Assembly (NCBI RefSeq): GCF_000330505.1
Contig: NW_004440445.1
Span: 577,399-641,398 of the forward strand
Direction of reading: 5' to 3'
Source of the DNA: Entamoeba invadens IP1
Taxonomy: Eukaryota; Evosea; Mastigamoebida; Endamoebidae
Length of the DNA: 64,000 bases
How positions within the stretch are numbered: position 1 is the stretch's first letter; the number at the start of each line of letters is the position of its first letter. The notes beneath the pieces are model-generated. The model saw only the letters and a program-made list of their open reading frames with translations. It made no database searches and had not been told where the DNA came from. A program made the position numbers and the translations under genes. This document shows, in pieces, positions 1-61,305 of this stretch.

Positions 1-116
1 TTATTTAATGTAATATGATTATAACATACTATATTAAATAAAATAAATACTATATAAGTATAGTATATGAGTAAATGATTAAAGATTGAGAACAAGACAG
101 CACAAGAGGCAATTAC

Positions 117-551
117 TTACTTCAATGGGACGAACTTAGAAGAGTGGGTAGCACCGACACCGGGTCTTCCGTGTGTGACTGGTTTGTAAGTGATTGAGAA
201 CTCACCGAGGTAGTGTCCGAGCATTTCTGGTTTAATTTCGACGGTGGTGAATGTCTTTCCGTTGTAGACGCCGATGACTGATCCGATCATGTTTGGCAAA
301 ATGATTTTGTTTCTGCATTGAGTCTTGACGGTCTTTGGTTTTTCGTCAGCTTTAGTGGCCTTCTTGATCTTCAACAATTTCTTAACAAGGCGTTCGTGTT
401 TCAACTTTGGGGAGCGGGCATACGATCTTCTGCATCGGGCATCTAACATTTTCACAAAGTCGGGCTCTGGCATGGCAGTGATCTCTTCGAGGGATTTGCC
501 CTGGAACTCAAACTTCTTGAAGGTACGCTTCTGTCTCTGGTTGTCAGACAT
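117..551 (-). CDS. RPS15: 40S ribosomal protein S15 (uS19 family)
   Basis: Component of the small ribosomal subunit head, near the decoding site. The 144-residue product matches the eukaryotic S15/uS19 family in length and layout: a basic N-terminal helix region rich in K/R, then the uS19 core with IGVYNGKTF and the signature GHYLGEFS followed by a [13 protein letters not shown] segment and a basic end SSKFVPLK. I start at the ATG at 551; an in-frame TTG five codons upstream is not a plausible eukaryotic start. No intron is needed. Codon use is richer in GC than the flanks, as expected for a highly expressed gene. Identification rests on family knowledge and the intact signature. Confidence 0.95.
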
Positions 552-953
552 CGCCTCTAGTGACAATCAAGTTCACTTGACCAGCTACAACCCTATCCCA
601 TCGGTTACTAGTCGGGTTTAATTATTTTACTATTTTTATAGTTCTTTCTCCTTTTTTCTTTGTTTATTTTTATCGGTATATTCATTTTTTAAAATCGTTT
701 TTTTTGGTATAATTCTCAATAATTTTCCGTTATAATGTAAATTTTTTTATGATTTTTAATTGTTCATTAGTATTAATTAATAAACTATATATGGTACTAT
801 ACTGAAAATACTCTAATTATAATTATTAATATAGATAATAATAGTACCCATTAAATAAAGCTAAATATACTATAAATTATACTATTAAAACAATAAAAAT
901 TGAATACACTTAAATAAAAAATATGGTTTTTTATAATTAAAAACTCTCTTATA

Positions 954-1079
954 CAATAAAACCTCCCAAGAGCGGGCATTTTAAGCCAATCAAACTTTAA
1001 TTACCGCTCGATAGAGAACTCTATTTTTAGTTTCAGTCCAAAAAATGCCCACTCTTGAGAGAACTCGCTGTTAAGAGAT
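954..1079 (-). mobile_element. Degenerate copy of mariner-type MITE
   Basis: This unit begins CAATAAAACCTCCCAAGAGC right after a TA and is the reverse complement of most of the element at 1386-1567, with high identity through the shared core (CGCTCGATAGAGAACTC, then the ATGCCCACTCTTGAGAGAAC block). Relative to that copy it lacks about 33 bases between two GAGCGGG repeats near its left end and has lost the last terminal repeat after CTGTTAAGAG. It looks like an older, deleted insertion of the same family, inverted with respect to its neighbour. Confidence 0.75.
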
Positions 1080-1385
1080 ATATACAATCTTTCATTTATA
1101 ATGAAAAAATAGAGAATAGTATTTTTACTATTTTTTTAGTAAAAAAATTACTTCGATATTCTATAGTAGACCCACAACACCAATTGACCAAGTAATTACC
1201 AGTGACCAAATAATTATCAAAAGGGTGTATTTCCCGTTATTTACCTTGGAAATAATGGATTAAAAAAGTGAAAAAAAAGGTACACCAAATAATGGTAAGA
1301 AACTTAAATCTATTTTTTTAATAGTTCTTAATGAAAGTTTTAAAACTATTTATTTTACTTCTTACACTTGTTTGGTCTCTGTCTA

Positions 1386-1567
1386 CAGTAAAACCTCCCA
1401 AGAGCGGTACCTCTTAACAGCGGGTTCTCTCAAGAGCGGGCATTTTTTAGACTAAAACTAAAAATAGAGTTCTCTATCGAGCGGTAATTAAAGTTTGATT
1501 CGCTAAAAATGCCCGCTCTTGAGAGAACAAAATTCCCACACCCTCCCGCTCTTGGGAGGTTTTACTG
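1386..1567 (+). mobile_element. Intact mariner/pogo-type MITE with perfect 22-bp TIRs
   Basis: A 182-bp non-coding element with perfect 22-base terminal inverted repeats starting CAGTAAAACCTCCC at 1386-1407 and 1546-1567. It is flanked on both sides by TA (1384-1385 and 1568-1569), the target-site duplication of Tc1/mariner elements. Inside, a second inverted repeat of about 26 bases (GTTCTCTCAAGAGCGG and its complement) lets most of the element fold into a hairpin. The CAGT-AACCTC terminus resembles the mariner/pogo superfamily (family knowledge). It encodes nothing and must be mobilised in trans; no matching transposase is in this window. Confidence 0.85.
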
Positions 1568-1679
1568 TATTTTTTTGTCAACTAAAAAATATTTTTTACT
1601 GTATATTTCAATCCATTTTTTTCATCACCTTTTTTCAATCGACTTTTTTGAAAAACAATAGAAGTTCACAAGTCCCGAC

Positions 1680-2420
1680 CTACAAGTCGAAAATTGAATC
1701 GTCGAAATCTTCCAAATTAGACACAGGTGCTTTAATAAACACTTCTTGTTGAGTATCATTATTAGTATTTTGTTGAATTATTTGTGGTATGACTTGAGCA
1801 CTTTGTTTTGTATTAGTATTACTATTACACACTTTGATATCTGGTTTTATAATTTTCATAGGAGTTGACGCAACAGAATTTTCACACGTCGTTTTAGTTT
1901 GTGTTGACTCTCTCACGGAGTTAAAAGTGAGTGGTTCCAAAATTGTTTGTTTGTGATTCGTATCGAGTTGCCTGACATAGTCAGTGTCATACAACGAGTT
2001 CCCAAGGTAATTCCCAAAGAGTCGAAGTGCTCTTTTCCGCGCATCCGAGACCGCCTCTTTCTTCGCTAATTCAATCGCAGCGCCTTTCCTCGGCATCTCC
2101 GCCATCCCAACTCCAACATCTTCATGATAGGACCCATTCTTTAATGTCACACGTACTACAGCTGTCACGCCGACTTTGTACTTCCCTTTCTCAGCATCAA
2201 CGTAGTCAACATTCAAATTGGTAATACAACTACTCCACCCATCAAAGCCAAATAACGCATTACTTAATTCTACAACCCGCCATGACTCAAGATATGTCAG
2301 TTTCATGTTCGAAGGGCCGGGACGAACACTCACGTAATTGACGGGAACCTTCTGTTCTAAAATTTGTTGAATTTGCTCGGGATTAGTAAAACTCTGAGTG
2401 CCAAATAAAGATCCTTCCAT
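1680..2420 (-). CDS. RAD52: RAD52-type recombination mediator
   Basis: Predicted single-strand annealing and recombination mediator that acts in homologous recombination with RAD51. The first roughly 160 of 246 residues carry the conserved RAD52 DNA-binding core: VSVRPGPSNMKLTYLESW, then LSNALFGFDGWSS, a DVGVGMAEMPRKGAAIELAKK-like stretch and the hallmark SDARKRALRLFGNYLGNSLYD. The C-terminal third is low-complexity (N/Q/T-rich) and ends acidic; RAD51/RPA-binding parts cannot be recognised by eye. Start is the ATG at 2420; an in-frame TTG six codons earlier is rejected. The gene is divergent from the WWE-BRCT gene across about 370 bp. Confidence 0.92.
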   Translation of the reverse strand: MEGSLFGTQSFTNPEQIQQILEQKVPVNYVSVRPGPSNMKLTYLESWRVVELSNALFGFDGWSSCITNLNVDYVDAEKGKYKVGVTAVVRVTLKNGSYHEDVGVGMAEMPRKGAAIELAKKEAVSDARKRALRLFGNYLGNSLYDTDYVRQLDTNHKQTILEPLTFNSVRESTQTKTTCENSVASTPMKIIKPDIKVCNSNTNTKQSAQVIPQIIQQNTNNDTQQEVFIKAPVSNLEDFDDSIFDL

Positions 2421-2791
2421 CGTTCCGTTCAAAACCAATCTTGAATAATTGAGATGGTAGTTTTAATAATTGTTTTTTGTTGAGTTTATTTTGTCAAATT
2501 AGCATTTTTTGGGGTGTTTTAAAGTTAACAAAAACCTCTTTCTTTTTTTATCTCTTTTTGAAAACTATAATTTGATTGTTATTTTATAACATTTGTATGG
2601 TTTTGTTTTGTAAACCTCAATTATTGGTAATGTTATTTGTTTTGTTATTAAATCACCAAAAGAAAAGTTTTAAAAATGTTTATTTCACATACATAACATG
2701 TAAATAATAAATATATTATTAAAAATAATATAAAAAATAGTAATTACCAATAACATTAGAAAGTACTATAAATTTAAATAACTCAATCACA
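2421..2791. other. Divergent promoter region
   Basis: AT-rich spacer between the divergently transcribed RAD52 and WWE-BRCT genes. On the plus side TATAAATTTAAATA lies about 12-25 bases before the ATG at 2792, consistent with the short leaders and TATA-like boxes of Entamoeba genes. No RNA gene or further ORF is seen. Confidence 0.5.
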
Positions 2792-4186
2792 ATGGGCAAA
2801 TGGCAATGGTGGAACGACAAAGAGTGGGTAGATTATAGTGAAAAAGTGAGCGACCTTATTACCGAAGAGAAGAAGAAAGATGCCACGCTATATCGAGCAG
2901 ACGTTGACAAAGAGCGTTATGTCTCTGTCGATACTCTTCAGAACATATATCAAACATTTCACAAAGACCTTCCCGACGATATCAAAGGGGTTTGTGCACT
3001 TCAGCATCGCAAGGATGATGCCAATAAAGTTCGTTTAGTTCGCGAGGTACAAGACTTTCCCATCTTCAAAGAGAGTATTTTCTTCTATGGTGAGAAGGAA
3101 TACAACAAGAGTATAACACGCCTTACCGCGGAGGTGAATGGGGCTCAAATAGCAGATGATTATACTTCAGCAGATTACATCGTCCTCCCGTACACTGCCA
3201 AATTTACAGAGAACATGTCGAAGATCGTCGATTATTGTAAAGCATCAAAAAAGGAGTTATATGATACCGATTGGGTTGATGAATCCGTTCAAAACGGATT
3301 CATATCCAACACTACTATTACACAGAAGTGGGTCGACTTAGTCGATGAATGGAAAAATGACCAAGCAACTTTTGTCCTTAAACATGGCTTCGATCCGCTC
3401 GAGCAAATCTCAGAGGAACCAGATTCTGAGAAGGATGAGGGATCTGGATCTGAAAATGATGAAACCTCAAACTCCGAAGGCAATGGAAATGGCTTTTTTG
3501 GGGTACCCCCATTTGTTGCTTCACCGAAACCTGATGTAAAGATTATTCCTGTGAAAAACAACATCTACGAAGGCAAATTGACATACACGACATTGAAAGA
3601 GGAATACGTCTTTCAAATGTACTTTGATGGTGATGAGAATGATAAAGTGAGTGGGATGATCACATGGATTTCATTGCACAAGTGTCAGACTCGATTTGAA
3701 GGAATAAGAAAAGACAATACATTGAATATTAAAGAAACTAAATTCTTGAGAGGATCAAGCTTTTCGGAGTTGGGAGAGTACAATTTGGTTGTTAAAAGCG
3801 CTAATATTATAGAAGGGTCATTGGCAGGCGACTTGACTGCTAAGATTAAAGTCACTAAAGTGGTACCAACTAAAAGATGCCCCGTTCTCGACTCAATGGA
3901 CTTCTTTAAAAATACTACAAAAGCAAAGTTTGAGATGCAAATGAACTTGAGTGGAGAAGTTACTAAAGATGGAAATGGGTATGTCTTTGTAGTCCAAAGA
4001 GGTGATAAAGAAGTCAGAATTCCTCTTAAAAAAGACGGAGAAGATATTGCAATTAATTTGTGTGCCGCGCATGATATTATCAAGGAATGTCCAAATTCTG
4101 AAATGTATGAAACAGAAAAGGGAATTGAAGCTTTGCTACTGGAAGAAGAGAATGTCAAGACAACCATTCAGTTCAATGAAAATTGA
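2792..4186 (+). CDS. WWE-like and BRCT domain protein
   Basis: Unnamed 464-residue protein, probably nuclear. Residues 1-75 look like a WWE domain (KWQWWNDKEWVDYSEKVSDL, with later tyrosine/valine-rich strands), a module that binds poly(ADP-ribose) or mediates protein contacts. Residues about 88-172 look like a BRCT domain (IFKESIFFYGEKEY, a middle ADDYTSADYIVLP, and the conserved Trp in YDTDWVDESVQNGF). An acidic Ser/Glu-rich linker (about 205-240) follows, then two related beta-rich segments (about 255-350 and 375-464). PARPs combine such modules with a catalytic domain, but none is present here. Function in the DNA-damage or PAR response is inference. Single exon with a clear ATG. Confidence 0.7.
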   Translation: MGKWQWWNDKEWVDYSEKVSDLITEEKKKDATLYRADVDKERYVSVDTLQNIYQTFHKDLPDDIKGVCALQHRKDDANKVRLVREVQDFPIFKESIFFYGEKEYNKSITRLTAEVNGAQIADDYTSADYIVLPYTAKFTENMSKIVDYCKASKKELYDTDWVDESVQNGFISNTTITQKWVDLVDEWKNDQATFVLKHGFDPLEQISEEPDSEKDEGSGSENDETSNSEGNGNGFFGVPPFVASPKPDVKIIPVKNNIYEGKLTYTTLKEEYVFQMYFDGDENDKVSGMITWISLHKCQTRFEGIRKDNTLNIKETKFLRGSSFSELGEYNLVVKSANIIEGSLAGDLTAKIKVTKVVPTKRCPVLDSMDFFKNTTKAKFEMQMNLSGEVTKDGNGYVFVVQRGDKEVRIPLKKDGEDIAINLCAAHDIIKECPNSEMYETEKGIEALLLEEENVKTTIQFNEN

Positions 4187-5325
4187 TTTTTTTAATATTA
4201 TTTTTGTGTACTATAACATTTGGTATTTGATTGATTTATTAATATCAATTGCTTTGTTAATTTATTAATTAATATATATTAATATTATGTAGTTTATAGT
4301 ATTAATGCTAATAGTTCTTGAATGTAATAGAATTGAGTTAATAATTTAATTATTAAAAATCATATTTTTAAATGAATTAATTATAATATTTTTATGGTTT
4401 TTTATAGTTGTATTTTACTATAACCACACAAGTTCATGTTTAATAAAAGAAATTATTTGTTTGGTTTTTTAAAACATTTGTTCTTCTCAAGAAAAATTTG
4501 TTCCAGTTCTCATAAAATATAGTACCCCTTAAAGACTTCACAAATGTGACAAACTCTTTTACCATAAACAATGATTTGTCCAAATTACTTCGCATTTTTG
4601 ATTCAACATTATTAAATTGGTTGAAGTTAAAATAGTTTCTATCTTTAACAAATAAATTCTAAAACTAATTGAACTATTTAAATATAATTAAATATACTTG
4701 ACTGATAAAATATATTTTTATTACTAGTTTTTTCTGTTTATTAGAATAATCCACTTATTACCAAAATTCTATATCCGACTGGTCACTTTTTGTTGTGTTA
4801 AATGATAATATATTAATTAATAAAACAACTATACTTAATTTTTTTTCTTTTTCTTTTTTTATTATATCTTTTAATGAGTCTTTTTTTAACTATTTTTTTA
4901 ACATTTGTGTAGTAAAAAACTACAAGAGTGACTAACTCAAACAAATCAATCAAAATAACCTTTTAACAATCTTGTTCTATAACGGCTTTTCATTTTGTAA
5001 AAAGACTTAAACAACAAACACTTAAAACCAACAACGTCAAAATCAATGAAATTCTGAATATTTTGAAAAAAAAAGAATCTATAATAAACAAACCATTTGT
5101 TAATAGTATGCAATCACAAAGAAACAATGAGAAACATGTTGAGGCCAATAAGTAAATAGCCGCAAATAAAACCAAACCACCTTTTCTTAAATTCTATATC
5201 ATGTATTATAATTATTTAATTATAAACATATAGTAAAAATCATCATGTCAATACAGAAGAAGAAGAATGCCTATAGAAGAATAAAGACCTGAAGAAAAAA
5301 GTAAAGACAAAGCAATATTGAGAAA
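4187..5325. other. AT-rich intergenic region
   Basis: More than 1.1 kb of very AT-rich sequence with poly-T/poly-A tracts. I see no tRNA, repeat or supported ORF; a 61-codon antisense frame near 4990-5175 has no recognisable product. Confidence 0.5.
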
Positions 5326-9215: not shown

Positions 9216-10172
9216 CTATTGGAAACAGTAATTTAGCATCACTCTAAAATTTTGATCCTCCGAAAATTGTCCTTTGTGTGTGAGGAGATCAAACTCCTTA
9301 TTCACCGCATTAGCTCTCAAGTGTGTTGCTTTGTTTTTCTTGTATGGATATACCACAAATATTTTGCACGACGGGAAGAGTGACTTGATCAACTGCACAT
9401 CCTTTGAAATTGAGTCTGTAGTTCCTTCGACAACCATTATGACCACTTTTGGTGTTATACTCATTCCATAGCCTTCCCAAAACTCGTAGACTTCTAATGG
9501 TTCCAAGCACCTTTTAATTTGTTCGACTTTCTTGTCTGTTTTATCTGCTCCTGTTTGGAAGACAAAAACGTTACTGTTGCTCTCTTCTGTTTGTTTAACA
9601 TTTTTTTGTTCATCTCCGCTTTCGGTATCATTTGTTGTCACATTTTTTGAACTATTCACTTTTTGAAGTATTTTCGCATCTCCTTCGAACGGAGCAGTTG
9701 AGTTGGTATATCTCACGCTCATCTGTGTTTTAATCACTTCTTGTTTCATGATACTCATCCCCTTTTGGATGTTTGTTATCCGCTTCTTTTGCGTTTCCAA
9801 CTCCGTTTCGATCTTCTCGTGTTTACAAATATTTTCTATCGCGTCGCTGTTTTTAAAGCGCGACACGTTACTCATCACGTTCCTCCTCATCAGCCCTTCG
9901 TCCGCTTTTAATAACTCGAGAAACAAGTTTTGTGAGTCTTCACAGAGAAATTGGAGCTCTGCAGGTGACGTTTGTGTGAATGCCTTTAGTGCTCTGTCTA
10001 TTTCTCTCTGTGGGACTTCATAGTATTGCTGAACAAAGCCCAAAAAGTGTTTGACGGACTCATTCGTTAGTGCCGCATTTTTTGCGCAAAAGACGGTGGC
10101 CTGTGTTTTCGACGAAATTTTGAAGACAAGGTGGATTAAAAGGGTGTTTATATACTCCGCTGTATTATTCAT
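9216..10172 (-). CDS. Hypothetical protein with central coiled coil
   Basis: 318-residue protein of unknown function from a clear ATG. The N-terminal 110 residues are helical and mildly hydrophobic; residues about 115-145 (KIETELETQKKRITNIQKGM) form a short coiled coil; 165-205 are Asn/Ser/Thr/Glu-rich and probably disordered. The C-terminal 90 residues alternate hydrophobic strands (TPKVVIMVVEGTTD, CKIFVVYPYKKNK), suggesting a small alpha/beta domain. No domain is recognised; likely lineage-specific. It lies just upstream, on its own strand, of the tRNA-Gly. Confidence 0.7.
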   Translation of the reverse strand: MNNTAEYINTLLIHLVFKISSKTQATVFCAKNAALTNESVKHFLGFVQQYYEVPQREIDRALKAFTQTSPAELQFLCEDSQNLFLELLKADEGLMRRNVMSNVSRFKNSDAIENICKHEKIETELETQKKRITNIQKGMSIMKQEVIKTQMSVRYTNSTAPFEGDAKILQKVNSSKNVTTNDTESGDEQKNVKQTEESNSNVFVFQTGADKTDKKVEQIKRCLEPLEVYEFWEGYGMSITPKVVIMVVEGTTDSISKDVQLIKSLFPSCKIFVVYPYKKNKATHLRANAVNKEFDLLTHKGQFSEDQNFRVMLNYCFQ

Positions 10173-10288
10173 TTACTTATCAATTTTGAAGTTAAAAACG
10201 AAGAAAAAGTAAAAATAAGTCACATCAAAAGTAAAAAAAATTCTTTTGATTATCAAACTCTCAAAAACACTTCATTTGAATTTTTTTC

Positions 10289-10810
10289 TCATTTCGCGGT
10301 CTGACAAATTGTCACACCCACAAGAACTAAAATAACACCACACAGACACTCTTTTTGTCATTCACTTTTTACTATACTTTTATTAATTTATTACTATAAT
10401 CGTTACTATAACAAACTGATGGAAAGCTTACTCTCCCCAAGTAAATACGCTGTTAAGAACGTAAATATGAAAGTCAGGGCGTTCGACAGGGGCACGATAA
10501 GTGAGAAGTCGTTACTTCCCAAAAGCACAGAAAAAAGTATAGAGCCGCTTTGATTGATCAAAAATGGGATGACAAATCCATAGCTCAAAACTAGAGTTTT
10601 AATATCGGTTACTATATTTTGAACTAGAGTTGCTCCTTCTGGATGCTCGAAGTGAATCCCCTGTTTCATCAAAGGGTTCGTACATCCCCAAAGCATTCCG
10701 ACCAAAACGATACCAACGATCTCTTTGTGCCCTTGAAGAAACATCACACAAGTCAAAAGCAAAACAATTGCACCACATCCAAAACACACAAAAAGTCGTT
10801 CTTTCTCCAT
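10289..10810 (-). CDS. TMEM234-like membrane protein, two exons
   Basis: Small four-helix membrane protein of the TMEM234/UPF0546 family, drug/metabolite-transporter-like, function poorly known. Exon 1 is 10417-10810 and exon 2 is 10289-10326. The 90-base intron (10327-10416) starts GTTTGT and ends TTTTAG; reading through it would stop after SKLSISLL. Splicing gives 143 residues ending ILVGVTICQTAK, which restores the family's final helix. Landmarks are GMLWGCTNPLMKQG (about 38-51), FLINQSGSILFSVLLGS and PLSNALTFIFTFLTAYLLGE. Family name is from recognition of these motifs; the splice model is inferred. Confidence 0.8.
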
Positions 10811-19832: not shown

Positions 19833-21260
19833 TCAATATTTCCTATTCAAGTCGATATCAGCCCACTCTCTATCTCTTGACGAATACCTTGTATCATATC
19901 TGTCATCCCTTCTGTCCCTGTCCCAACTTCTATCTCTATCTCTTTCCCTTGATCTGCTCCTATCTCTCACTCTTATATCAAGTGAATAGACTTCTTCCTT
20001 CTTTTCTTTTTGCTCTCCTAAAGGCATTAAAGCGGGTTTTGGGACGTATTGACTTGCAGCACTGATGGGGGCACTCGGTGCTTGCAGCGTCGAGTTCCCC
20101 GGAGCCGCCGCGATGTTACTCATTGGGTTTTCCTTGACCTCATCTTTGTAGTTCCGTTGTTCTTGTTCGTTAAACAGCTGTCCGATGCTTTTGATGATCA
20201 TCTTGTCGATGTCCACGTTCGAGACGACAAGCTCACACTTCCCCTTCACTGCATTGAAAACTGCAGGCATGCTGTTAAACACAACTTCAATCGGCTCGTA
20301 TGACGCAATGATGATACAAACGGGGTTAATCATCACAGGCCATATCCTTCCCGGTACCTTCATCGAGTATTTCCCCATCCACGACGGCAGTTCTGCAAGT
20401 CGACTTGCGTTACTCCTTGAAATCCCGTTAAACACGACAACGGCTTCATTTGAATAATCGTCCCAATACATCGACGAGTCCTTGACATAGTAGTCTTCAT
20501 CGATCTTCTCCGCAATCCTCAGCGCAGTCTCATCCGCGTTTTCTCCATAGACAAAGTAGTGTTTCTTTGTTAATACAATCTGCGCAGGCTCTTCCGACAT
20601 TCGTGTCTCGTAGACCTTTTGCATAAATGACATTTCGTGCGTTGGTGCGTTTAGTGTTGTTTGTGTGAGTGGCCCTGGTTGAGTGCTAGTAGTTTGTTGC
20701 ACAGGCGTACTCACTGCATTTAAAGTCGTTGAAAGGAGTGGTCGACTTACTGAAGTGCTTTGAGCATTAGGTGATGGTGTTTGTTCCAGAGGAGTTGAGT
20801 AGGTGTTTGTTGAATGGGGATTGAAATGACCAGGTCGACCTCTTCCTTTAGGTATTGGTGTTGTAGTCTTCGATTGATACTTGTCTTTCTTTTTTAATGG
20901 TTTGTTGACGCCTTTCTTACATACAATTTTGTGGCCCACTTCAGCCCATCGCATCATCCCTGATGCATTTAGTAAAGGAAGCCCCCATGTCCCTCTCATC
21001 TCCAATTCGCGTTGTAACAACGAGAGCATCTTAGGCGTTTGAAATAAGAAAAATGCTCGGATCTTTGGTATCCCCGTTCGCGTCGTTTTCTCAAAGACTA
21101 CAGCAGTCACTGCTTCCTGTGATATTCGATCAATCGACGCGATATCTTGTTTCACTGCGTTGTATAATGTCAACGCCCATTCCCCGTTAAATTTGTTCGA
21201 CGGACATGAAAAGTCAAAATACTTCGAGCGACGGCTCGTTATGCGTTTGGTCTCGCTCAT
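19833..21260 (-). CDS. Rep-derived host protein (CRESS-DNA virus origin) with RS-like tail
   Basis: 475-residue uninterrupted ORF. Residues 27-118 follow the order of a viral rolling-circle Rep endonuclease domain (WALTLYN, GIPKIRAFF, GTWGLP, VGHKIVCKKG), and 233-330 follow its superfamily-3 helicase part (YFVYGENADETALRIAE, MYWDDYSNEAVVVF, INPVCIIIAS). The active-site features are decayed: no His pair at GIPKIRAFF, no Tyr before CKKG, no GK[ST] in the P-loop position, no acidic Walker B pair. Between them lies a 100-residue Thr/Ser/Pro linker with an AT-hook-like KGRGRPG; the end (about 428-475) is Arg/Ser/Asp repetitive. I infer a domesticated, catalytically dead Rep with a nucleic-acid-binding role. 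Endogenous Rep-like genes are known in Entamoeba. TATTTAAATAG precedes the ATG. Confidence 0.6.
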   Translation of the reverse strand: MSETKRITSRRSKYFDFSCPSNKFNGEWALTLYNAVKQDIASIDRISQEAVTAVVFEKTTRTGIPKIRAFFLFQTPKMLSLLQRELEMRGTWGLPLLNASGMMRWAEVGHKIVCKKGVNKPLKKKDKYQSKTTTPIPKGRGRPGHFNPHSTNTYSTPLEQTPSPNAQSTSVSRPLLSTTLNAVSTPVQQTTSTQPGPLTQTTLNAPTHEMSFMQKVYETRMSEEPAQIVLTKKHYFVYGENADETALRIAEKIDEDYYVKDSSMYWDDYSNEAVVVFNGISRSNASRLAELPSWMGKYSMKVPGRIWPVMINPVCIIIASYEPIEVVFNSMPAVFNAVKGKCELVVSNVDIDKMIIKSIGQLFNEQEQRNYKDEVKENPMSNIAAAPGNSTLQAPSAPISAASQYVPKPALMPLGEQKEKKEEVYSLDIRVRDRSRSRERDRDRSWDRDRRDDRYDTRYSSRDREWADIDLNRKY

Positions 21261-21645
21261 CTTCTATTTAAATACTTCTAAGATTTTGTTAGGGTTTCTT
21301 TTCTTTCTTTTCTCTCTTTTTCTTCTATATCTCAGTTCGTTTAAATGACTTTTGTTCGGTTCTTCGTGGGAAATGAAAGATTTTTTCTCAATAGTTTAAT
21401 TAATCATTATTATTCTTTTAATTTTTATTTAATATTTTTATAATTTAACTATTAATAATGTAATTAAAAAAATGTATTATTATAAAATTAAATACAAAGT
21501 ATTCAATATAATAAATTTATTAAACTAATAAATAATTATAATATACTAATGAATATAGTATAATGTACATGAAGATATGAATAACCTCAAAATAAAAAAG
21601 TGCTTATTGAACTTGAATAAACTATAAATATACTTTTTTAATATA
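21261..21645. other. Divergent intergenic region
   Basis: Spacer between the divergently transcribed Rep-derived and phospholipase B-like genes; promoter-like boxes occur at both ends. No ORF seen. Confidence 0.5.
21609..21630 (+). promoter_or_regulatory. GAAC and TATA-like boxes upstream of PLBD-like gene
   Basis: GAACTT at 21609-21614 and TATAAATA at 21623-21630, 16 bases before the ATG at 21646. Entamoeba core promoters carry a GAAC element and a TATA-like box close to the start; assignment here is by resemblance only. Confidence 0.4.
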
Positions 21646-23247
21646 ATGAGGATGATTTCATTGTTCATTCAATTTTATTTGATCACTCTTTCAGTAGCAA
21701 AAACAGCGAGTGTAGTTAAAGGCGAGAAAGGTTTTGAAGTCTTAAAGAGTCGTTTGCGTGGTTCAGTAGCTTGGGGGTCCTATGAAAATACCGTGAATAA
21801 AACTGGATGGGGTGTGTTAGACATCCACACCAACCCCAAATACACAGCGACGGACCAAGCGTATGCTGCCGGGTATATAGAATCGTATATGACCCATCAT
21901 TTGATATATTTATATTGGAAGAATTTCCTCGCCAATGAATACAACGGCAAAGTGCCCCATCGAGTTCGTGAGTTCTTTTCCATGCAATTTCGATTTTGGA
22001 AGAAAAACATATTTAGAAAGCCGGACGACTTCGACGATGAAAATTATGATGAGAAGTATTGGTCACAACAACGTCTTATTTATGAACAACTGAAAGGGTT
22101 ATATGTGGGATACAAACATTTCTCCTCTGCATGTGAGAAGCTCAAATTAGAGGACATTTACTTACTTAATTCTGTTGGTGACTTACCAACAGTCAGTTCA
22201 AAGTATTCCCATGGCTATGGAGATAACTCGATGTTAGATTTACAAGAGAAACATCCCGATGAGATCTACCACGAGTGCACCGCATACATCAAATTTAACA
22301 ATAAAACTAATGATGTGATCTACTCTCATAACACATGGCGGCCGTACTATGCAATGTTACGTATTTATAAGAATTATTACTTCCCGTACACTCAAAATGC
22401 ATTCCCAATGAGCTTTGCAAGTAGTCCCGGCTTGATCCACTCAAAGGACGACTTCTACCAACTTCAAAGTAAAAACGACCACCGCCGCTTTGGGGTGATG
22501 GAGACAACCAACTCGTTTTATATCAAAAAGTTATATAAAAAGATCGACCCCTTCACTCTCTTATCTTGGCAGCGTGTTTTAGTCGCCATGTACTTCCAAA
22601 AGACTTGTAAAAAAGTCGTAGAGACAATAGGTAAATACAACTCGGGGACTTACAACAATCAGTGGATGGTCCTAGACTTAAAGAATGTCACAGAACATGC
22701 CAAAGACAACGCAAACTTATTATTTATAGGAGAGCAGATGCCTGGAAGATATGAAGTTTTAGACGTGACGCCCACTCTTGTGAAAACCACCTTTTGGGCG
22801 TCATACAACACGCCCTATATCAAATCTATTTATATCAACTCGGGCTACTTGAAAAAGGTCAAATTGGGGAAGAAGGAGTATAGCTACACCAAGTGCACTC
22901 GTGCGCGTTTGTTTAAGAGGGATGGGGCCAGAATGCATACAATCGACGACGTCAAGAAGCTGATGACTATGAATCACTACAAAACAGATAAACTCGCAAA
23001 GAAGCCGCGCAACCAAATTGCGTCGAGGTACGACCTTGAGAAGTACGACATGCGTGCACCATTTGGCGCTGTTGATTGTAAGATAGGAGCAGCGTCTTTA
23101 GGCAAAACCACGTTAGCGTATTGTGGACCAACTAAAGAAGGTGGACTTCCTCCTTTCGACTGGAAAAGGTTTCCTAAAGTGCAGCATGATGGGACTCCCG
23201 CTGTGTTTAATTTCGATTGGGTTGAAATGACGCCGATGAGTGATTAA
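21646..23247 (+). CDS. Phospholipase B-like (PLBD/laminin-ancestor-type) lysosomal hydrolase
   Basis: Predicted secreted or lysosomal N-terminal-nucleophile hydrolase of the PLBD family. The 533 residues begin with a signal peptide (MISLFIQFYLITLSVAK), then the family body: TDQAYAAGYIESYMTHHLIY, CTAYIKF with Cys211 as the likely autocleavage nucleophile, VIYSHNTWRPYYAMLRIYK, the central GEQMPGRYEVLDVT and a C-terminal YDLEKYDMRAPFGAVDCKI. Length fits the family (about 550). Activation by cleavage before the Cys is family knowledge. The first ATG (21646) or the second (21652) would both give a good signal peptide. Confidence 0.88.
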   Translation: MRMISLFIQFYLITLSVAKTASVVKGEKGFEVLKSRLRGSVAWGSYENTVNKTGWGVLDIHTNPKYTATDQAYAAGYIESYMTHHLIYLYWKNFLANEYNGKVPHRVREFFSMQFRFWKKNIFRKPDDFDDENYDEKYWSQQRLIYEQLKGLYVGYKHFSSACEKLKLEDIYLLNSVGDLPTVSSKYSHGYGDNSMLDLQEKHPDEIYHECTAYIKFNNKTNDVIYSHNTWRPYYAMLRIYKNYYFPYTQNAFPMSFASSPGLIHSKDDFYQLQSKNDHRRFGVMETTNSFYIKKLYKKIDPFTLLSWQRVLVAMYFQKTCKKVVETIGKYNSGTYNNQWMVLDLKNVTEHAKDNANLLFIGEQMPGRYEVLDVTPTLVKTTFWASYNTPYIKSIYINSGYLKKVKLGKKEYSYTKCTRARLFKRDGARMHTIDDVKKLMTMNHYKTDKLAKKPRNQIASRYDLEKYDMRAPFGAVDCKIGAASLGKTTLAYCGPTKEGGLPPFDWKRFPKVQHDGTPAVFNFDWVEMTPMSD

Positions 23248-51533: not shown

Positions 51534-52613
51534 TCACTTCACATTCTTCACTAGAAATGCATGCTTCAAACAATTCTCCAAGCTCATCCGCATCGACGGC
51601 TCTTTCACTATCAACTTTCTGATAAAGTCTTTGGCGATATAAGACACATACACGGGGAAACTGATTAACATGGGATTGACTTGTTGTTTGTTGACAAAGT
51701 CTATTGAACCAAAGGGAGTGTACCCAGTCAACAGTTCAAACGTAAGAACCCCTAAACTCCATAAATCAACGGCCTTATCGTACGTCTTGTTCTCAATTAA
51801 TTCCGGACTTAAATAGTCGGGTGTACCGCAACACGTCTTCCTCTTACAATCACTCCGCACAGACCATCCAAAGTCAGATAACTTCACGTCTCCATTCATG
51901 TCAAGTAAAATATTCTCCGGCTTGAGGTCTCGGTGAATGCACTTTCTCTGGTGAATGTGAATCAGAGCATCCGTCGTTTGTTTCACGTATTTCGCCGCTT
52001 CTGGTTCGGAAAACCGAATCTGTTTTTGCAGTAATTTGTATAACTCCCCTCCCTTACAAAATTCCATCACTAAAAAATACCGCGTTTCGTCGTCGAAAAA
52101 AGCAAATAACTTCACTACATTGTGATGATTAAAATGTGACATCAACTCAACCTCGCGCTTTAACTGAATCGTCATGTTGTAACGCTCAATTTTCCTCTTG
52201 TGGAGGACTTTAATTGCACACACATAGTTGCTTGTTCTTAATTCTTTTGTCATCAACTTTATAACAAAATTTGGTAAACACTTTAATAAGTGAAGGCATT
52301 TACTTAATAAACAAGTCATAATGTGTAAAGTTAATAATAAAATAAAGAAGTAAAGAATAAACTTTAGTTTGTACTTGGCAAGATATACTGTGCCAAACCT
52401 CCCTTCACCTAGAGGTTGACCGATCGAAAACATTTTCAAGTTGTATTTGGAACAAACGGTCGGCCTGAATGGTTGATATAACAGGTCGGAGCTGAACACA
52501 TGTAACAGAGAAAATCTGATGACACGGAATGGAAGTTTTGGCTTCATATCTGCGTCGTACTGTTTTATCGTCTGTAACATTGTGTGGTGAATTTGATTTG
52601 GCTTAATGCTCAT
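51534..52613 (-). CDS. Aurora-type Ser/Thr kinase with in-frame intron
   Basis: Mitotic kinase of the Aurora family. The open frame is 359 codons, but 52237-52362 (126 b, AT-rich, GTTTAT...TTAAG, divisible by three) splits the N-lobe between FGTVYLAKYKL and TSNYVCAIKVLHKRK and would encode a spurious hydrophobic segment; I treat it as an intron, giving 317 residues. Kinase landmarks: GEGRFGTVY, AIKVL (catalytic Lys), HRDLKPENILL, DFGWSV, KRKTCCGTPDYLSPEL (activation Thr), DLWSLGVLTFELLTGYTPF. The DFGWSV plus CGT-DYL pattern is characteristic of Aurora. No TPX2/INCENP-binding region could be judged. Confidence 0.82.
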   Translation of the reverse strand: MSIKPNQIHHTMLQTIKQYDADMKPKLPFRVIRFSLLHVFSSDLLYQPFRPTVCSKYNLKMFSIGQPLGEGRFGTVYLAKYKLKFILYFFILLLTLHIMTCLLSKCLHLLKCLPNFVIKLMTKELRTSNYVCAIKVLHKRKIERYNMTIQLKREVELMSHFNHHNVVKLFAFFDDETRYFLVMEFCKGGELYKLLQKQIRFSEPEAAKYVKQTTDALIHIHQRKCIHRDLKPENILLDMNGDVKLSDFGWSVRSDCKRKTCCGTPDYLSPELIENKTYDKAVDLWSLGVLTFELLTGYTPFGSIDFVNKQQVNPMLISFPVYVSYIAKDFIRKLIVKEPSMRMSLENCLKHAFLVKNVK

Positions 52614-58873: not shown

Positions 58874-61305
58874 TCAATGGTCTGAAACAAGTTCCATTCG
58901 AGACACACTGTTTGTCGCCAACTTCAGAATTAACCTTGTGTTAACCGTGTCCACCTTCATATTGGATTTTCTTGAATATTTGAAATGAGAAAATACAGAT
59001 TCGACGCAGGAAGATGTGGGGATGAGACATAACATAATTTTGACCAATTGGGATATAATAGGAAAATCGACTTTGTCAAATATCTGTATGGCTTCCAATA
59101 ACGTGAAATTTTTCTTCTCCTGTTTAGTGAACGCCTCTTTCAATGTTTTTTGATTTTCCCAAACCAGATTTTGGAGTACACAAAGCTCTTCATTCAACTG
59201 GTCAAATGAGGTCTTGGGAAGCAGTATGTTGTCATAAAGGAATTTCCCTGGAAATAGAAAGGATTCCAAAAGCGGTTCGATATTTTGAAATTCATCCAAT
59301 TCTTCTTTGACTTCTTCCAACTCTTCGATTTTTGATCCAGGCTTTACAGTGGTCCAATTGCAGAACCGGAGCTCCAATGCTCTTAGATAACTTCCCAAGA
59401 CACGTTCACAACTATTTATAATAATTGGGGAATCAAAATAAAGATATTTGCAAGCCGATTTGAATGGTAAAATATCCCCCCTTTCGCACAATTCCTTCTT
59501 TTTTCTCAGGTCATCTAAGTATGTATCAATTTTATTTACTTCATCAACAAATAAGCCAAACTTCTCTTGAAGAGCATCAAAAGGGCACTTAGCCTCAGTG
59601 AGTAAGTCGAAGAAAAAACCCAGGAATGCCAGGAAGGCCGGATCTCTTATTTTAAAAGATTTCCTTTCCTTATTCATGAAGAAGTAGAAGTCGTATGTAG
59701 TTGTGTCCTGTGAGTGGTTCATTTTTTCCTTTCTCCTCTTATTTTCTTGTTGTTTCTTCTTCTCTTTACTTTCATTGTGGTGCTTGACAAGGGTTGCGAC
59801 AATTTCATTTTCAAGTTCCAGTTCCTTCACAAAAATTTCGATCTTTTCAAGATTTTCAAAGCAAAATTTTACCAAAAGTTGATAATAAAACCACCTGGTG
59901 TTTGAAAGTGTTGGAATCGCCGCGACATCCATTTTCTTTCTTCCCCAAAATGCCTTCCAAGCAGTTATTATGATATCAGAGCAAAGCCACTTTAAAAAAC
60001 ACAGAAAAACTTCGGCGTCATCTGTTGCCCACATAAATCCTTCCGCGACATTCAATCGATGACACATACAATACACAGTGAAAAACGGGAATGTGACTAA
60101 ATCAAATGGAAGATGATAATCACTATTCTTTTGTTTTTATCCCTTTCTCTTTGAATGATGTTCAAAAGCTTTGCGTCACACACCAACTTTGAAAAGCCTC
60201 CCTCTTTCCCAATCATTGAACTGGCCCCATCTGTTGTTGAAAAAACCAGTTTGAGCAATGGAGCATTGAAAGACTTAAGAACTTCAAGTAGCCATTTTTC
60301 ATGTTTACTGCAGAGCACTTCTCAAAAAATTCAGCCACAATCAGAGTCTTTTGGACTATTGAGTTGTCTGAGAACGCAAGTCTACAAACAAGAGCCAAAA
60401 TTTCACTACCATTTTTTTGCCGTATCAAAGGCAACACCAAAGCAGACACACTCATCAAATTGGCGTTTTGTTATTTCAGTTTCATTGCTACTCAACCGTT
60501 GAAGAATATTGAGACAATGAGAATGACTTATATGGATGCTTTTCCAAATATTATCAAACTCGTCGCAGAATAATGTCCCAAATGAACCCACAAGCTGTTC
60601 CACCAGTTTACATTGTGATTGACTAAAAACACCTTTATTTTCCGCAATAGCAGCAATTGAAGAAAAAATGTAACTCTTTTCGGCTAAGTTATCATTTTTT
60701 TTCCAGTTGTTCCAGTCTTCGAGCATATTTCTGATTTCATTTCCTTTGCTATTACTATGTAATCCCCATTTGGGGCTTTAGACTTCTCATAAACTTCCTT
60801 TTCAATCGTTTGTCTTATATTGTCCGAGCACTCCATCATTATTTCTCCTTCTATTTTTTCATCTTCCATTTCACTACAATTATTGTGTTCACTGTTCGTT
60901 GTCATGTCTTCATCCACAGGTGTTTCACGGTTCATTTCCCCAATCACTGTATTGTCATCTTCCATTTCATTTTCAACGTCAAAATCAAGTTGCTTCTTGC
61001 TTCCTTTCTTTGGTCTTTGATGGCGAGGTTCTTCTATATACTTTTCTGCAGCACTTTGAGCCTCTTTTATATATTGAGTCTTTCTTCTTTTCAAATCCTC
61101 CTGCATTAAATTAAATTTTTGTACTGAGTATTTAGGACATTTTAAATAATGAGTTGTATTACATTGATCCAAAAAACACCTGGAACAAAACGGCCAATAG
61201 TAAATCGTTTTCCTCGACTTGAAGTACACTGGGATTGTTGCATGTTTATTGATGTTCTTTGTTATATTTTTTTCTCGTCTTTTCATTACATCTCTTGTTT
61301 TCTTG
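58874..61305 (-). pseudogene. hAT transposase, frameshifted (N-terminus in gap)
   Basis: The coding sequence runs on the minus strand in at least five pieces: about 61305-60684 (Cys/His-containing FCSRCFLDQCNTTHYLKC, possible Zn finger), 60726-60406, 60458-60213, 60318-60097, 60076-58874. Each junction shifts frame. Family landmarks are STTDGASSMIGKEGGF, CHRLNVAEGF and the C-terminal dimerisation motif FPIISQLVKIMLCLIPTSSC...SVFSHFKYSRKSN. The far N-terminus is hidden in the assembly gap. Some shifts could be sequencing errors, but their number argues for a pseudogene. Confidence 0.85.

Follow-up and report, generated by a model that had tools for sequence, protein, structure and literature searches.

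Relics of the replication initiator Rep are known from many eukaryotic genomes. A locus of Entamoeba invadens IP1 raises the question of whether such a gene can be kept intact by its host after all of its active sites have been lost, and of what the host would then use it for. The open reading frame (ORF) concerned lies on the minus strand at 19833–21260 of a 64,000-nucleotide stretch of contig NW_004440445.1 (positions 577,399–641,398; assembly GCF_000330505.1), called the window here, to which all coordinates refer; all features described within the gene are on the minus strand as well. A first-pass annotation, made from the letters alone, had described it as a host gene derived from the Rep of a circular Rep-encoding single-stranded (CRESS) DNA virus and retained for a non-catalytic job. 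Our analysis supports both the reality of the gene and this interpretation, with a Rep origin favoured by the predicted fold of the N-terminal domain and by profile comparisons of the C-terminal domain.

An intact gene in several Entamoeba lineages

The frame runs from ATG to TGA over 475 codons with zero internal stops and requires no intron, exactly as first annotated, and a six-frame search of the organism's own 35-Mb assembly at E 1e-3 returned a single match, the locus itself. The gene has a GC fraction of 0.45 and the 300 bases flanking it on each side have 0.17 and 0.15, the contrast to be expected of coding sequence in this genome. Among ~5.8 billion proteins, of which 4,110 became candidates through short words in common with the query, three relatives were found besides the query, all of them from Entamoeba: E. 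histolytica (P0002, 436 residues; locus tag EHI8A_076550), E. dispar (P0003, 437 residues) and E. marina (P0004, 415 residues). A profile of all four proteins, applied at E up to 10 to 4,961 candidates from ~5.8 billion proteins, gave no further relatives.

The orthologues are 35–39% identical to the E. invadens protein in local alignments and 38–41% across the alignment, and this identity is unevenly distributed, reaching 47–57% in a nuclease-like segment and 45–48% in a helicase-like segment but 20–27% in the linker between them; the E. histolytica and E. dispar proteins are 74–95% identical to each other, depending on the segment. When the two domains were set against the linker plus residues 341–420, identical positions numbered 103/206 versus 35/146 for E. 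invadens and E. histolytica (p 9e-7), 98/206 versus 32/123 for E. invadens and E. marina (p 1e-4), 87/206 versus 21/101 for E. histolytica and E. marina (p 2e-4) and 186/206 versus 123/153 for E. histolytica and E. dispar (p 0.009), these being four of the six possible species pairs and the contrast perhaps being inflated by a linker that is gapped and hard to align. The linker thus appears to change faster than both domains, in keeping with selection. Intact orthologues with a shared derived state occur in several species, the pattern expected of an exapted viral gene, and from orthology together with domain-biased conservation we infer that the gene has persisted as one host gene since the lineages split. 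The claim that the gene was retained, and is not a fresh relic, appears to hold on three grounds: the three orthologues, the replacements that they share at dead sites, and a conservation that is higher in the domains than in the linker.

Two Rep-like domains without catalytic residues

The first-pass limits of the two domains, residues 27–118 and 233–330, agree with a structural match over residues 21–119 and a profile–profile match over residues 235–330. The N-domain (residues 21–119; 20904–21200) has a predicted beta-alpha-beta-beta-alpha arrangement, and in Foldseek and VIA-align comparisons of the model (predicted local distance difference test score, pLDDT, 55–71, at residues 31–80 only) the first eight structural matches were CRESS Rep nuclease domains; the domain is thus predicted to have an HUH nuclease fold. 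An RRM origin was considered for this domain and rejected, as Reps clearly top the structural ranking; Pfam scans that allowed E values as high as 10 gave no match to an RRM family.

For the C-domain, a profile was built from residues 205–375 (E. invadens numbering) of the four orthologues, with no Rep included. Against 177,635 distinct PDB sequences it placed a redondovirus Rep first, at 13.5 bits and an E of only 0.35, and Reps made up three of the nine sequences listed. It was also run against 85 plasmid-type and inovirus-type Reps (from 79 of 80 loci plus six named records; L070 was left out for want of a usable Rep ORF), which were picked by their P-loop and are mutually related and so do not amount to 85 independent tests, together with 646 other ORFs of the fetched loci as decoys. 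The best Rep (L064, plasmid-type, from a gut bacterium) scored 19.7 bits (E 1.8e-5). Eight of the decoys are longer forms or pieces of Reps or of L070; with these set aside, the top 14 rows were all Reps, the best of the 638 true decoys scored 8.7 bits, and the area under the receiver operating characteristic curve (AUC) moved from 0.975 to 0.980. The maximum reached by 60 column-shuffled profiles was 10.4 bits, and hhalign aligned the core, residues 235–330, with Reps at P 0.006 (1 of 300 shuffles). By sequence, then, the C-domain is a putative superfamily 3 (SF3) helicase core whose profile scores Reps highest.

The functional residues of the redondovirus Rep follow the published description of that protein (PMC12981564); the other Rep motifs go by their usual names. 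Motif I is retained in all four species as W-A-x-T-[LI]-x-N (WALTLYN in E. invadens, residues 28–34; 21159–21179), with W, A, T and N invariant. The remaining motifs had been called decayed, and their catalytic residues are indeed absent from E. invadens and its three orthologues. At the motif II site (residues 66–71, KIRAFF; 21048–21065) HxH or HxQ gives way to KIRA, KVRG, KIRG and SIRG in the four species, the His/Gln site reading [KS]-[IV]-R with Arg68 invariant. At the motif III site (residues 110–117, HKIVCKKG; 20910–20933), placed by our own reading of the alignment by eye and not by a tool, the catalytic Tyr is Ile112 in all four.

Within the helicase-like core (residues 231–330; 20271–20570), the Walker A pattern GxxGxGK[ST] is absent, the site (residues 239–246; 20523–20546) reading GENADETA, GSCSDEIA, GSSSDEIA and GENSDEVA in the four species, with an invariant Asp-Glu and no loop Lys; the position of that Lys is taken by Thr, Ile or Val in the hhalign register and by Ala or Ser in the HMMER alignment with the redondovirus Rep, which is shifted by three, and Lys occurs in neither. 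The counterpart of the (D)GY segment of Reps follows at residues 265–271 (YWDDYSN; 20448–20468; YWDDY invariant). In the Walker B strand (residues 273–280, AVVVFNGI; 20421–20444) both acids are lost, replaced by NG, LG, LG and PG with Gly279 invariant, and in the motif C strand (residues 316–322, IIIASYE; 20295–20315) Asn is replaced by Tyr, Tyr, Tyr and Cys.

The metal-site His/Gln, nuclease Tyr, Walker A Lys, Walker B acids and motif C Asn are thus missing in all four species, in which catalysis is excluded as far as their predicted proteins tell. Arg68, Ile112, Asp243, Glu244 and Gly279 are invariant, and these shared replacements at dead sites argue that motif loss predates the split of the three lineages, most simply as one event.

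Between the domains lies a variable linker (residues 120–230; 20571–20903) of 61–112 residues in the four species, with 37–41% Ser, Thr and Pro and 20–27% identity between lineages. It occupies the segment in which Reps carry an oligomerization subdomain between nuclease and helicase domains (PMC12981564, available text), a subdomain that is unrecognizable here. The AT-hook-like segment claimed for the protein is present as KGRGRPG (residues 138–144; 20829–20849), but its RGRP core occurs in only one of the four orthologues, that of E. invadens, and we rejected it as a shared feature. The claimed Arg/Ser/Asp tail (residues 421–475; 19836–20000) is evident from dipeptide counts: its 55 residues hold 22 RS, SR, RD, DR, RE or ER dipeptides, against no more than three in the last 55 residues of any of the other 34 window ORFs of at least 150 residues. 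The tail is of RD/RE type in E. invadens, RS type in E. marina and mixed in E. histolytica (RS/SR in the last 70 residues: 24 in E. marina, 6 in E. invadens, 5 in E. histolytica and 5 in E. dispar).

Profile and structure comparisons each joined one of the domains to Reps, the orthologue profile the C-domain and the predicted fold the N-domain; other outcomes weigh against the explanation proposed below. Pfam, PHROGs and NCBIfam scans of the protein gave zero families at cut-off, and PF00910 (RNA_helicase) appeared below cut-off at E 0.11, in E. marina only of the four members (residues 198–256). The nuclease-like domain is not recognized by its sequence profile among the 85 Reps and decoys (AUC 0.703, or 0.705 once the eight decoys were set aside), and the PDB sequence matches of this part are guanylate kinases (E 0.05–0.06). 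The model of the helicase-like domain, at pLDDT 51, is of too low quality for a test of the fold, and no Rep or helicase is among the Foldseek or VIA matches listed. The hhalign probabilities are just 3–7%; a hidden Markov model of plasmid-type Reps scored the E. invadens protein at a non-significant 5.8 bits, below the 9.4 bits of an unrelated DEAH helicase of the window; and direct comparison with the two pieces of a Rep relic from the same genome gave no significant match (P 0.13 and 0.31). Shuffled profiles also rank Reps high, with up to eight in the top ten, so the score of the C-domain profile, and not its ranking, carries the weight. The tail, finally, is poorly conserved between lineages (24–51%) and weakly RS in E. 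histolytica. The guanylate kinase relation itself (E 0.03–0.5 for the whole protein) we judged a chance result, as the fold search points elsewhere.

A proposed role, its donor and the alternatives

We propose that an Entamoeba ancestral to at least the E. invadens, E. histolytica/E. dispar and E. marina lineages acquired in its genome a Rep gene with two domains, either from a CRESS-DNA virus or from a related plasmid-type replicon, that the nicking and ATPase sites of this gene were lost before these lineages diverged, and that the gene was then retained as one host gene. Its product would be an exapted, non-catalytic and probably nuclear adaptor that binds nucleic acid passively, a reading to which we give an even chance. 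The nuclease-fold domain, which retains motif I and is positively charged overall, would bind RNA or single-stranded DNA but leave it uncut; the SF3-like domain would act free of ATP as a partner surface; a flexible linker would stand in place of the oligomerization subdomain; and the Arg/Ser/Asp tail might provide phospho-regulated protein or RNA contacts like the RS/RD tails of mRNA-processing factors. We prefer the adaptor reading because it accounts for all of the retained and added parts.

The donor may have been either a CRESS virus or a plasmid-type Rep, and the domains have diverged too far for a donor tree. The best PDB match is 9pqj, from the redondovirus Vientovirus FB, whose Rep it is and which is said to replicate in Entamoeba gingivalis (PMC12981564); Rep relics of Entamoeba group with two virus families that had been newly named (PMC7493932). 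A tenable though rather unlikely alternative, otherwise identical to the adaptor reading, is that the gene came not from a eukaryotic virus but from a plasmid or inovirus Rep of gut bacteria, by way of phagotrophic amoebae. The helicase profile scores higher on the gut-bacterium Rep L064 than on the redondovirus Rep (19.7 versus 13.5 bits), and the residues that occupy the place of the redondovirus KGG, VP[GC]R in the family (KVPGRIW in E. invadens, residues 301–307; 20340–20360), resemble the LP[CS]R of plasmid-type Reps, P-[GCS]-R being common to both groups and KGG being found in the redondovirus Rep and in the relic of this genome. The comparison is biased, however, setting 85 plasmid-type Reps against the few eukaryotic-virus Reps of the PDB, while the N-domain fold matches are circovirus Reps, which the PDB represents well, and a Pro before the motif C strand resembles the redondovirus Rep.

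Eukaryotic-virus Reps could be compared only through the PDB because searches of viral contigs and with the relic found no usable Reps: the viral contigs searched held no relative of the protein and none of the relic helicase piece, a generic Rep-like DNA pattern found 14 loci on them, none with a P-loop in the matched ORF, and the relic helicase piece found no protein in a large protein database. The relic (L002; contig C2, ~9543–10466, minus strand) is a broken canonical CRESS Rep in two separate open pieces, a nuclease piece and a helicase with readable Walker A, Walker B and KGG. Three more places in the genome (L003–L005) lie above the PF00910 cut-off. A Viral_Rep family search of the genome gave no match, but gave none in controls either, and so shows no absence. 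Among the plasmid-type loci, the bajarodino viruses (L026 and L028–L031, annotated Inoviridae) encode an HUH–SF3 Rep that shares 29.5% identity with the Rep of Bifidobacterium plasmid p4M, a kinship that links filamentous phages with plasmid-type CRESS Reps.

More specifically than the adaptor reading, the Rep may have been made into an RNA-processing factor, with an RNA- or single-stranded-DNA-binding nuclease domain, an ATP-free helicase scaffold and an RS-type tail; this would be an old SR-protein-like factor of independent mobile-element origin, common to distant Entamoeba lineages, and we regard it as doubtful. The likeness to mRNA-processing proteins with SR/RS tails is a possible analogy only, in that both would combine a beta-sheet nucleic-acid-binding fold with a low-complexity Arg-rich tail; unlike SR proteins, the present protein has no RRM family match, and its tail in E. 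invadens is RD/RE, not RS.

An antiviral decoy, in which the dead Rep was kept to block replication of Entamoeba CRESS viruses by occupying viral origins or the viral Rep, we consider unlikely. Entamoeba species are implicated as CRESS virus hosts and have relics of these viruses in their genomes (PMC7493932), the top PDB match comes from a virus said to replicate in E. gingivalis (PMC12981564), a broken canonical Rep relic is present in this very genome, and motif I is retained though catalysis is lost. The variable linker in place of the oligomerization segment, however, makes mixed hexamers unlikely; the gene is old, has a single match in the genome and is best conserved in its domains instead of changing fast there; origin recognition by one old Rep presumably could not track changing viruses; and a decoy would not need an Arg-rich tail.

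That the gene is a functionless relic, an old insertion whose frame has stayed open by chance, is improbable. Such a relic might well show lost catalytic motifs, a fast-diverging linker and tail, and E. histolytica and E. dispar proteins still 74–95% identical by segment, but a neutral relic is expected to lose its frame and to change evenly, whereas frames of 415–475 codons are open in four species at 35–41% identity to the E. invadens protein, and the domains are significantly slower than the linker in each of the four species pairs compared. Least probable of all is an unrelated host protein with an RRM-like or ferredoxin-like N-domain and a C-domain that resembles SF3 helicases by chance.

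Known Rep systems and the genomic surroundings

Compared with CRESS virus Reps such as those of circoviruses and redondoviruses, the E. invadens gene has the same domain order, N-domain fold, motif I and, by profile, helicase core; it differs in lacking motif II, the motif III Tyr, Walker A, Walker B and motif C, in its unrecognizable oligomerization subdomain, in its added Arg-rich tail and in its status as a host gene shared between species. With plasmid and inovirus Reps of the p4M/bajarodino type it has in common P-x-R at the B' position, and these give the best helicase-core scores. All 85 of them carry a P-loop (the selection criterion), 79 have HxH in the first 160 residues, and none has more than five RS, RD or RE dipeptides in the last 55.

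Entamoeba genomes were already known to hold endogenous CRESS Rep-like sequences, some of them expressed (Liu 2011, PMC3198968; Kinsella 2020, PMC7493932), and Liu 2011 counted ten in E. invadens IP1, the elements there described having conserved, easily found motifs and being mostly truncated and degraded (PMC3198968). Here the frame is intact, the motifs are lost and distant species share the gene; as far as the available descriptions of those elements extend, an intact, motif-less Rep gene shared across the genus is distinct from them. A description of this gene family was not found in the open-licence literature as far as its available text goes, and none of the papers there contains the locus tags of the three orthologues. 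An old and intact Rep gene kept across a genus with all active sites lost would be a clear example of a replication initiator co-opted for non-enzymatic work. The present gene lies below curated-family cut-offs, and similar genes may therefore lie unannotated in other genomes; a host still exposed to CRESS viruses that also has a dead Rep of its own is, moreover, a testable system.

Upstream of the gene, the first-pass annotation had pointed to a TATA-like box. The motif is there, as GTATTTAAA at 21267–21275, the sole exact Entamoeba TATA consensus of the window (one observed, 2.8 expected by chance), but it lies 7–15 bases from the ATG, nearer than the −50 to −30 at which the TATA box of E. 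histolytica mostly sits (PMC6416950, available part); at this unusual position it is no proof of expression, and we rejected it as such. A second TATA-like sequence, TTTAAA followed by GAAC, lies 75–85 bases 5' of the ATG (21335–21345).

Elsewhere in the window, a 397-residue ORF at 58874–60067 (minus strand) has zero Pfam matches at 1e-3, and its C-terminus resembles what we take to be the dimerization region of hAT transposases. A protein kinase gene (PF00069) lies at 51534–52613 (minus strand); in the N-lobe its frame appears, by our own reading, to run through an AT-rich intron that has not been spliced. A clear Rad52/Rad22 gene (PF04098, E 2.5e-49) lies at 1680–2420 (minus strand). The head-to-head neighbour of the Rep-derived gene is a phospholipase B-like gene on the plus strand at 21646–23247 (PF04916, E 1e-131), which is usable as a synteny marker.
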